IMG/VR virus record: IMGVR_UViG_3300044765_000025
Coordinates: 1-23,846 of that record
DNA length: 23,846 bases
Source: a virus
Reading direction: 5' to 3' (one strand)
How positions within the stretch are numbered: the first letter of the stretch is position 1; every line of letters begins with the position of its first letter. Shown in pieces: positions 5,546-13,206 of this stretch. The translations under genes were made by a program, and so were the position numbers. Below the pieces are notes generated by a model, which was given only the letters and a program-made list of their open reading frames with translations, had not been told where the DNA came from and searched no databases.

Positions 5546-5569
5546 AAACCGCCTTCGGGCGGTTTTTTT
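5546..5569 (+). terminator. Rho-independent terminator between decoration and capsid genes
   Basis: An 8-bp stem (AAACCGCC / GGCGGTTT) closed by a TTCG tetraloop runs straight into a T tract, giving seven consecutive T residues. It lies 28 bases after the decoration stop and 27 bases before the major capsid start, which leaves no room for a promoter between hairpin and capsid gene. Confidence 0.88.
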
Positions 5570-10239: not shown

Positions 10240-10683
10240 ATGGGTCGCGCTTACAGTTTCCTCGACGTCCAAGCCACCATCACTGGGCCTGGCGGCTCGT
10301 TCAATCTCGGGTCCGGATCCGGCAATGCCGAAGAGGGCATCACGATCGAGATGGCGGAAGACAAGAACAACATGGCGGTTGGCGCTGATGGGCAGGTGAT
10401 GCACAGCCTCCATGCCGGCAATGCGGGCACCGTCACCGTCCGGCTGCTGAAGACGTCGCCGGTCAATGCCCAGCTGATGGCGATGTACAACCTCCAGAAG
10501 ACGTCATCGTCGCTGTGGGGGAATAACGTCATTTCCATCAACAACAAAGCCAGCAGCGACAACAATGGGTGCCGAGCCGTGGCCTTCAAAAAGGCTCCAA
10601 ATATGGCCTATGCGAAGGACGGCGGAACGGTCGAATGGGCCTTCGACGCCGGCTACATCGATAGCATTCTCGGCACTTACTGA
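10240..10683 (+). CDS. Tail tube protein, DUF3277-like
   Basis: The 147-residue protein opens with YSFLDVQATITGPGGSFNLG and continues GSGNAEEGITIEM, which matches the DUF3277 group found directly after DUF3383 sheaths. Members are tail tube subunits: hexameric rings that stack around the tape measure inside the sheath. A good ribosome binding site (AAGGAG) precedes ATG 10240. The chaperone pair and tape measure follow, the standard tail-assembly order. No signal or membrane segment is present. Tube identity is inferred from family and position. Confidence 0.85.
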   Translation: MGRAYSFLDVQATITGPGGSFNLGSGSGNAEEGITIEMAEDKNNMAVGADGQVMHSLHAGNAGTVTVRLLKTSPVNAQLMAMYNLQKTSSSLWGNNVISINNKASSDNNGCRAVAFKKAPNMAYAKDGGTVEWAFDAGYIDSILGTY

Positions 10684-10691
10684 GGCCTGAC

Positions 10692-11093
10692 ATGGAATTC
10701 GAGATCAATGGGCAGACTTATCGTTCGTCCAAGCTGAACGCCCGTCAGCAATTCCACGTCTCCCGCCGGCTCGCCCCTGTGCTTGGCGGCCTGGCTACCG
10801 CGTCGGGAAGTGCGGCGGAGGACTTCGCCCACTTCCTCCAGCCCATTGCGGACGCCGTGGCGAAGATGTCGGACGACGACTGCGACTACATCCTGGATAC
10901 CTGCCTGGCCGTGGTCCAGCGGCAGCAGGGAACGGCATGGGCACAGATTTTCGTGGCGAAGAACATCATGTTCGAGGACATCGACATGGCCGCTATGCTC
11001 CAGATCGCTGCGAAGGTCATCCAGGAGAACCTGGGGAGTTTTTTTCACGCAAGCGCCGTCAGCCAACTGAATTCGGCCAAGGCGGCAGCGTAG
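10692..11093 (+). CDS. Tail assembly chaperone, short (unshifted) form
   Basis: The 133-residue helical protein lies between tube and tape measure, where tailed phages encode the chaperone that coats the tape measure before tube polymerisation. Its N-terminus (MEFEINGQTYRSSKLNARQQFHVSRRLAPVL) is of the type seen in such chaperones. Near its end the reading passes through seven T residues, giving Ser-Phe-Phe-His, and then a short tail of 15 residues to the stop at 11093. A second open frame in the -1 register begins at the same spot. Most ribosomes would make this short form and a minority the extended one. Confidence 0.85.
   Translation: MEFEINGQTYRSSKLNARQQFHVSRRLAPVLGGLATASGSAAEDFAHFLQPIADAVAKMSDDDCDYILDTCLAVVQRQQGTAWAQIFVAKNIMFEDIDMAAMLQIAAKVIQENLGSFFHASAVSQLNSAKAAA
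11023..11086 (+). promoter_or_regulatory. Programmed -1 ribosomal frameshift signal
   Basis: Three standard elements are present in order. A Shine-Dalgarno-like AGGAGA at 11023-11028 lies 10 bases before a slippery heptamer T TTT TTT at 11039-11045, which is in exact register (codons AGT, TTT, TTT). A stem-loop starts 9 bases downstream: GCCGTC 11055-11060 can pair with GGCGGC 11081-11086 (one G-U), with a possible inner GCC/GGC helix. Upstream SD plus slippery site plus hairpin is the arrangement known from dnaX. A -1 slip enters the frame that runs to 11269. Confidence 0.82.
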
Positions 11094-11269
11094 CCTGGGC
11101 GTCTCTCCCTGACGGCGAAGACTGGCTCCTGCGGCCGGTCATGCGGCAGATGTGCCGATTCGAGAGCTTGATCGACGGCACATTGGACCTCGAGCAAGTC
11201 GCGCTGCTCAACGACGCCATTGACGTCATCGACGAAAACAAGATCAAAGCCCAAAGCCTGAGACCATGA
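11045..11269 (+). CDS. Frameshifted extension of the tail assembly chaperone (DUF6889-like)
   Basis: This -1 frame has no plausible start with a ribosome binding site of its own, yet encodes a well-formed domain: WASLPDGEDWLLRPVMRQM, then FESLIDGTLDLEQVALLNDA. It resembles DUF6889, small proteins found between chaperone and tape measure in related phages. Joined by slippage at 11039-11045, the product would have 118 residues of the chaperone plus 74 from this frame, 192 in all. This matches the G/G-T logic of lambda, where the T part binds the tape measure. The stop overlaps the tape-measure start (ATGA), which supports translation of this frame. Confidence 0.8.
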   Translation, partial: SRKRRQPTEFGQGGSVAWASLPDGEDWLLRPVMRQMCRFESLIDGTLDLEQVALLNDAIDVIDENKIKAQSLRP

Positions 11270-13206
11270 GTACGGAAGTCATCCGCGAATTTCTGGTCTC
11301 CCTTGGCTACAAGGTGGACACGACGGGCCAGCGCCGTTTTGTCGATGGCGTGGAAGGAGCCACCAAGGCTGTGGTGGCCCTCGGCGCGGCGGCCACCGCG
11401 GCGGCAGGAACGGCCCTGGCGTCGATCGCCAAGATGGCGTCGGGTCTGGAAGACCTGTACTACATGTCCCAGCGGACCCGAGCGTCCGCCGAGAACATCC
11501 TCGCCGTGGGCTTCGCAGCAGGGCAGATGGGCTCCAGCGTGGAGGGAGCGCGCCAGTCGCTTGAAAGCCTGGCGCGCTTCATCCGGGAGAACCCGGGCGG
11601 GGAAGGCCTGATCGGCAGCCTTGGCGTCGCGACTCGAGACGCCAACGGCCAGTTGCGCGATACCTCCCGCATCATGGAGGACATCGGCTCTCGACTGGCT
11701 CGGATGCCCTACTACCGTGCCAGGCAGTACGGAAACCTCTTCGGCTTCGACGAGAAGACCCTCATGGCTTTGCGCCAGGGTCTTGGTGGGGCGGAAGCGC
11801 AGTACCGTCAGATGCTCCGCGCAGCCGGTCTGGATGCCGATGCGGCGGCGAAGTCCTCGCATGACTTCATGAACTCCATGCGGGAGGTGGTGGCCTGGAT
11901 CCGCATCCTATGGATGAAGGTTACTTCTGACCTTGCGGGCGGCGTAGGAAACCAGATCCAGCGCTTTCGGGAGAAGTTCGTAGCGAACTTCGACCGGATC
12001 GCCAATGTCATTGCATCCGTCATCAAGGCCGCCCTTTGGCTGGCTGACATTCTGACGCAGATCGCCATGCGTGCGGTTGATGCTGTGAACTGGATCATCC
12101 AGCGCTTCGAGGGACTGGACGAGGGAACGCAAGACCTCATCAAGACCATTGGTCTCCTGGTGGCGGCCTGGTGGGCCTTCAACAAGGTCATCTCCATGAG
12201 CCCGGTAGGGATTGTCCTTGCCTTGGCTGCGGCGATCGTCGCCCTGTGGGACGACTACCGAACCTGGAAGGAGGGTGGCAAGAGCCTCATCGACTGGGGG
12301 AAGTGGGAGCCTGGCATCAAGGCGGCCACTGAGGGCATCAAGACGCTCATTCAGTGGCTGAAGGACCTTATTGGCTGGACTGAGAAAGCCTTCGAGAAGA
12401 TGAAGGAGATCTCGGACAAGGCCCTGGGAGGCACGAAGGCAGGCGACAAGATCGGCGATCTCACTGCTCGCGCTGCTGCCTTCTTCGGCAACCGAGAGGC
12501 GCAGGAGGCCGTCTGGCGAGCTGAGCACGGTGGAATGAGCCCGAAACAGTGGGTCATTCGGAAGAACTACCCGAACGGCAACGCCCCAAAGGCTCTCCTC
12601 GACAAATCGGAGGAGGAGTTCTGGAAGGAGGCTGGTATCGGCGACGGATCGCCGTCGAATGCCACTCAGGCCAGATCGACGAATCCTGGTGATCCGCTTG
12701 GCATACGCAACAACAACCCCGGAAACCTCCGTACGGGTCCGGGTGGATCGTTCGGCGTCTACGCTACCGCCCAAGAGGGACTGAATGCCCTAAGCCGGCA
12801 ACTTGGCCTCTACTACAACGGAGAGTCCGCAGCCGCTGGTCACCGAAAGCTTCAGAACGTGCGGGACATCATCAGCACCTACGCGCCGAAGAACGAGAAC
12901 AACACGGCGGCCTATATCGCGGCCGTTTCGGGAGCGCTCGGCGTCAGTCCCGATGCGCAACTCGATCTGAACGATGTGGCGACGAAGGCAAAGCTCATGC
13001 AGGCCATCACGCTGCACGAGAACGGGGTCAACCCGTACTCGGATGCCATGTTCAGGCAGGCCGCCGGCGCAGGTCTCAACCAGACGACCAACATCACGGT
13101 GTATGGCTCTGATAGGCCTCAGGAAACGGCCAACGAGATCGCGGCTCGCCAGAACCAAGTCAACGACCGGGCAACCCGAAACCTGAAGGCAGGAACGGCA
13201 ACGTGA
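11266..13206 (+). CDS. Tail tape measure protein with C-terminal peptidoglycan-active-like domain
   Basis: The 646-residue protein sets tail length and is the longest helical product of the tail cluster. Residues 30-55 are an Ala-rich hydrophobic helix. About residues 288-328 form a long hydrophobic stretch with Trp residues, typical of tape measures that insert in the inner membrane. The C-terminal 170 residues form a globular domain beginning GIRNNNPGNLR (about residue 479) and including GVYATAQEGLNAL and TAAYIAAVSGALGVS. I know this domain as 'structural protein P5-like' in many virions, with a presumed murein-degrading role. Its catalytic residues are not established to me. It follows the chaperone pair (ATGA overlap) and precedes the Dit-like gene. 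Confidence 0.88.
   Translation: MSTEVIREFLVSLGYKVDTTGQRRFVDGVEGATKAVVALGAAATAAAGTALASIAKMASGLEDLYYMSQRTRASAENILAVGFAAGQMGSSVEGARQSLESLARFIRENPGGEGLIGSLGVATRDANGQLRDTSRIMEDIGSRLARMPYYRARQYGNLFGFDEKTLMALRQGLGGAEAQYRQMLRAAGLDADAAAKSSHDFMNSMREVVAWIRILWMKVTSDLAGGVGNQIQRFREKFVANFDRIANVIASVIKAALWLADILTQIAMRAVDAVNWIIQRFEGLDEGTQDLIKTIGLLVAAWWAFNKVISMSPVGIVLALAAAIVALWDDYRTWKEGGKSLIDWGKWEPGIKAATEGIKTLIQWLKDLIGWTEKAFEKMKEISDKALGGTKAGDKIGDLTARAAAFFGNREAQEAVWRAEHGGMSPKQWVIRKNYPNGNAPKALLDKSEEEFWKEAGIGDGSPSNATQARSTNPGDPLGIRNNNPGNLRTGPGGSFGVYATAQEGLNALSRQLGLYYNGESAAAGHRKLQNVRDIISTYAPKNENNTAAYIAAVSGALGVSPDAQLDLNDVATKAKLMQAITLHENGVNPYSDAMFRQAAGAGLNQTTNITVYGSDRPQETANEIAARQNQVNDRATRNLKAGTAT

Follow-up and report, generated by a model that had tools for sequence, protein, structure and literature searches.

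The tail module of the virus contig analysed here (the window; 23,846 bases in all) contains two overlapping reading frames that, judging from comparative sequence analysis, are almost certainly joined by a programmed -1 ribosomal frameshift, which would make a Phage_TAC_15 product and a longer Phage_TAC_15-DUF6889 product. We consider -1 programmed frameshifting very well supported because 203 of 205 non-identical relatives have DUF6889 in the -1 frame, an in-register slippery heptamer occupies a fixed position in 186 of these 203, and in none of the 203 is there a start with a Shine-Dalgarno (SD)-like sequence between the slip site and DUF6889. The relatives, together with the match of the predicted fold to a known chaperone, lend strong support to the central claim of an earlier sequence-only reading of the window, which had proposed this pair of frameshift products.

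The upstream frame, ORF1 (10692..11093, + strand), extends from an ATG at 10692 to a TAG at 11091–11093 and encodes a short, gpG-like tail assembly chaperone (TAC) of 133 aa, with matches to Pfam Phage_TAC_15 (E=1.3e-32) and to the tail assembly chaperone family PHROG 1688 (E=1.2e-40). ORF2 (11045..11269, + strand), a 74-aa C-terminal extension in the -1 frame, carries DUF6889 (Pfam, E=1.8e-14; PHROG 4364, E=4.8e-17); read from 11045, it begins SRKRRQP, ends LRP and stops at a TGA (11267–11269) that overlaps the ATG of the tape measure gene at 11266. The predicted fusion, join(10692..11045,11045..11269), comprises 118 + 74 = 192 aa with the junction S-F-F-S-R, and the coordinates and translations agree with the length, junction and overlapping stop that had been proposed for it.

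As expected for the lambda G/G-T type, ORF1 is recognizable as a TAC by sequence (Phage_TAC_15) and also by fold. The ORF1 and ORF2 parts were modelled separately. The ORF1 model (mean pLDDT 88.9) was aligned by VIA-align with PDB entry 5ir0 at Z 8.4 and rmsd 2.9 over 90 residues with 13% identity, the next row scoring 4.8. This match surfaced in the VIA-align second look only, as Foldseek alone returned nothing significant for the ORF1 model, and HK97 2OB9 itself was absent from the VIA-align listing. The 5ir0 protein, deposited as having unknown function, is described as the TAC of the Vibrio satellite PLE1 and as similar to the HK97 TAC 2OB9 (PMC12987554, 2026); the likeness of the ORF1 model to the TAC of this cholera satellite is a fold link between a satellite chaperone and a phage chaperone. 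The ORF2 model, for the most part confidently predicted from residue 20 onwards, has three helices, and no solved structure matched it (none at E<=0.001 in Foldseek; best Z 2.3 in the second look). PDB profile searches by sequence gave no convincing relative of either ORF1 or ORF2, and we found no mention of DUF6889 in the literature.

The lambda G/G-T type also includes an overlapping second frame in -1 that has no start of its own, and this is what we found. In-frame ATGs of the -1 frame are located at 10937, inside ORF1, around which this frame is closed in most close relatives, and at 11141 and 11150, after the conserved LPDGEDWLLRPV motif, so that the earlier description of a second frame without its own start was right in substance. 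ORF2 is entered as a CDS in its own right in several records, and its annotated start in BgManors32 overlaps the stop of ORF1, as if DUF6889 were a separate small protein whose translation began internally or through reinitiation after termination near that stop. We regard a separate protein as very improbable: an ATG, GTG or TTG between the slip site and DUF6889 exists in just 32 of the 203 relatives (an ATG in six), a product started at the first ATG past the slip site in the window, at 11141, would lack the LPDGEDWLLRPV motif and its invariant Pro, and the fixed heptamer would be left unexplained. Relatives that lack the heptamer and carry the two frames as separate genes with ribosome binding sites, the case that the sequence-only reading had named as telling against frameshifting, were not encountered, as an SD-like start was seen in 0 of the 203.

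In the window the slippery heptamer is T_TTT_TTT (11039–11045, + strand). The codons AGT (11037), TTT (11040) and TTT (11043) place it as X_XXY_YYZ in register with ORF1, exactly as had been claimed. Among the phage ORFs listed for the window, this is the only T7 run within a coding frame, and in-register X_XXY_YYZ heptamers number nine in 6,065 codon positions. Phenylalanine is encoded in the listed ORFs by TTT 25 times versus 151 times by TTC; this usage, with the occurrence of a sole all-T heptamer in a coding frame, argues that the T7 run is no accident of composition. Given the S-F-F residues and local codon usage, a heptamer is expected in ~2% of synonymous versions.

Conservation was analysed in 257 loci, including the window's own copy, that were gathered from phage records, viral contigs and bacterial genomes; the three forward frames of all loci were scanned with iterated profiles for both parts, and removal of identical stretches left 205 loci with both. 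The in-register X_XXY_YYZ heptamer of the 186 relatives lies 1–6 codons past a conserved Asn (N113), against a mean background in the rest of ORF1 of 0.23% per codon position. The amino acids and the codon usage of each locus predict 26 heptamers at the three main positions, and 185 were present, with the qualification that the sequences are related and the heptamer z-scores therefore are not probabilities. The heptamer is present in the majority of members in 72 of the 85 clusters formed at 60% identity, and is thus conserved in position, again as in the lambda G/G-T type. Its type varies by cluster (T TTT TTT, T TTT TTC, T TTT TTG, G GGA AAT/A AAT TTT, C CCT TTT) while the position is unchanged, which is expected if slippage itself is selected. 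Among the twelve closest sequences, one Phe column of the site is TTT in 12 of 12, TTC predominates in the other invariant Phe column, and more than one codon is used in 9 of the 12 invariant residue columns. The length of the extension is almost constant (median 77 aa, 5–95% range 74–82).

Two relatives are exceptions to the frame relation. In L160, ORF1 has lost one base before the slip region, which shifts the frame, and the slip region itself resembles that of its neighbours. In L158 (IMGVR_UViG_2065487013_000041, about 1490–1510), eight Ts put the chaperone and DUF6889 in one frame, which reflects either an error in sequencing the homopolymer or a constitutive fusion that occurs naturally. 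This T8 relative and the seven-base homopolymer run at the site would also fit transcriptional slippage on T7, with mRNAs longer or shorter by one base giving the fusion by normal translation. That explanation has little chance of being right, given that the G GGA AAT, A AAT TTT and C CCT TTT lineages keep the same -1 arrangement at the same codons and that the codon register of the slip site is maintained.

Counting against the frameshift reading, a canonical heptamer is missing from the site in 17 of the 203 relatives. Sixteen of the relatives (L023, L026, L036, L063, L072, L076, L077, L079, L082, L104, L137, L174, L221, L247, L250 and L253) have no canonical heptamer anywhere in the scanned overlap and nonetheless keep the -1 arrangement. 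Several heptamer-less relatives read NNN CCT TTT ATN or GAT TTT ATN at the site, and we tentatively suggest that such relatives (e.g. L079, GGG CCT TTT ATG) might shift on non-canonical sites, perhaps via one-tRNA slippage. If so, the chaperone family would be a natural series of slippery-site swaps in which the frameshift is kept.

The sequence-only reading had further described the signal as dnaX-like, with an SD motif and a hairpin around the run. The positions agree: the SD-like AGGAGA (11023..11028, + strand) is 10 nt before the slippery run, and a candidate 3′ stimulatory stem-loop predicted by folding (GCCGUC.GCC ... GGC...GGCGGC; 11055..11086, + strand) begins 9 nt after it. The dnaX-like geometry is present, but this part of the reading is weakly supported: the encoded residues and the codon usage would produce AGGAGA anyway, and the structure of the hairpin is not conserved. 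An SD-like motif occurs in 92% of synonymous versions of the AGGAGA stretch, CAG GAG being the usual Gln-Glu codons of this phage; family-wide, it was observed 57 times versus 41 expected in what are related sequences, mainly at T7 loci (30 versus 17). Downstream stability is unexceptional, with a z of about -0.1 for 70–100 nt and about -2.3 for the best 40 nt, and the stem-loop is in the top 5–8% for stability among GC-matched windows of its size; across the family, z for the 40 nt downstream averages slightly lower than elsewhere (-0.56 versus -0.03). In close relatives the stem-loop is partly broken and its covariation is not above chance (paired cells 58.6% versus 58.7% in shuffles); the full set of relatives was too diverse in alignment for pattern searches. 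A conserved downstream stem-loop of the dnaX type is accordingly not supported, there being no covariation excess. AGGAGA and the 11055–11086 hairpin may act as stimulators.

Just before the slippery run there is a 5′ hairpin (UCCAGG-AGAA-CCUGGG; 11020..11035, + strand) of -7.9 kcal/mol, a strength reached by 7% of synonymous versions. Stems at the 5′ side show little, and no clear, excess in relatives (mean z -0.22); this hairpin was rejected as a conserved element and is probably incidental. Its terminator-like score notwithstanding, we give next to no credence to the hairpin and T7 forming an intrinsic terminator that tunes tape measure expression, since it sits within a translated gene, its stems show little excess in relatives and the scanned 7 kb holds four terminator-like sites versus 4.2 in shuffles.

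The contig encodes a head-to-tail structural module in which the head genes (portal, Mu F-like protein, DUF2213, cement protein and major capsid, in this order) are followed by those for a DUF3383 sheath, KPP10_Orf10 tube, the chaperone pair, tape measure, a Dit-like protein and a Pam3 gp18-like plug. The tail of this phage is of the KPP10/Pam3 contractile type. The chaperone pair is placed, as in the lambda G/G-T type, between the gene for the tail tube protein (KPP10_Orf10/DUF3277 type; 10240..10683, + strand; Pfam KPP10_Orf10, E=3.1e-62) upstream and that for the tape measure protein (11266..13206, + strand; PHROG 2276 tail length tape measure, E=1.5e-147) downstream, whose ATG overlaps the ORF2 stop as ATGA. 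The nearest host-named relatives come from Dyella genomes (Rhodanobacteraceae), with 78% and 70% identity in ORF1.

Three other features of the contig were noted. A textbook-looking intrinsic terminator, AAACCGCC-TTCG-GGCGGTTTTTTT (5547–5569, + strand), absent from the terminator scan output, lies between the cement protein gene (end 5518) and the major capsid gene (start 5596), and could govern how abundant upstream transcripts are relative to those of the capsid gene. An acyltransferase-3 gene (Pfam PF01757; 19488–20570, - strand), possibly a lysogenic-conversion gene acting on surface sugars, is located downstream of the tail genes. An ORF near the contig edge (23402–23818, - strand) aligns with no more than the C-terminal end of the N6/N4 DNA methylase profile and hence is probably a cut-off gene.

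For the chaperone pair, the analysis shows the frame relation, the slippery site, the conservation of both and the predicted ORF1 fold, and from these we infer the slippage, its efficiency and the binding roles of the products as follows. The majority of ribosomes would read ORF1 to the TAG at 11091 and make the 133-aa tail assembly chaperone, and in a minority the P- and A-site tRNA-Phe on TTT TTT (11040–11045) would move back one base; these ribosomes would continue in the -1 frame and make the 192-aa chaperone with the DUF6889 extension. If the roles are those of lambda gpG/gpGT, the tape measure protein would be coated by the common part, and the rare extension would bind the tail tube protein and start tube polymerization.

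Among the 19 annotated relatives examined, two have a join, eight have ORF2 as a separate gene and nine are without ORF2, i.e. the fusion is missed in 17 of the 19. The expectation that gene callers would miss it is borne out for most records, but not for Klebsiella phage Mulock (MN098327) and Burkholderia phage Magia (NC_070954), which already carry a joined product. Most records of the phage group have a wrong annotation of this two-product chaperone, which the analysis settles, and Pfam DUF6889 would be explained as a frameshift-only C-terminal domain of Phage_TAC_15 chaperones (203 of 205 relatives).

The Escherichia coli dnaX gene has the heptamer A AAA AAG, an SD-like motif upstream and a downstream stem-loop, and its stimulators are established. 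The window resembles it in having an SD-like motif 10 nt upstream, a heptamer and a downstream stem-loop, although here the stimulators are indistinguishable from coding and composition effects. In lambda, the slip sequence is GGGAAAG and the tail is non-contractile, whereas here T TTT TTT is found in a phage with a KPP10/Pam3-type contractile tail; family searches revealed no sequence relation to the lambda chaperones. Nevertheless, lambda gpG/gpGT and the pair described here have in common one start, two chaperone products, a -1 shift and a location between the major tail protein and the tape measure, and the lambda mechanism is widely conserved in long-tailed phages (PMC5009743). Phage P2 E/E+E′ is alike in its contractile tail, slippage on a T run and the same place in the tail operon, and differs in its chaperone family and in the last base of the heptamer (G versus T here); since P2 E+E′ slips on TTTTTTG, with no downstream hairpin reported (PMC3091744), the all-T run to which attention had been drawn is not unusual. 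Mulock and Magia share Phage_TAC_15 + DUF6889, the gene order and an annotated joined CDS with the window, but have other slip sequences, GGGAAATTTTTTG (Mulock) and CCCTTTT (Magia), and ~40% identity in ORF1. In view of the lambda and P2 precedents and of the joins in Magia and Mulock, we therefore regard the finding as correct, of an ordinary kind and of use chiefly for annotation: the chaperone pair is a well-formed, unremarkable example of the lambda G/G-T type and involves no new mechanism.
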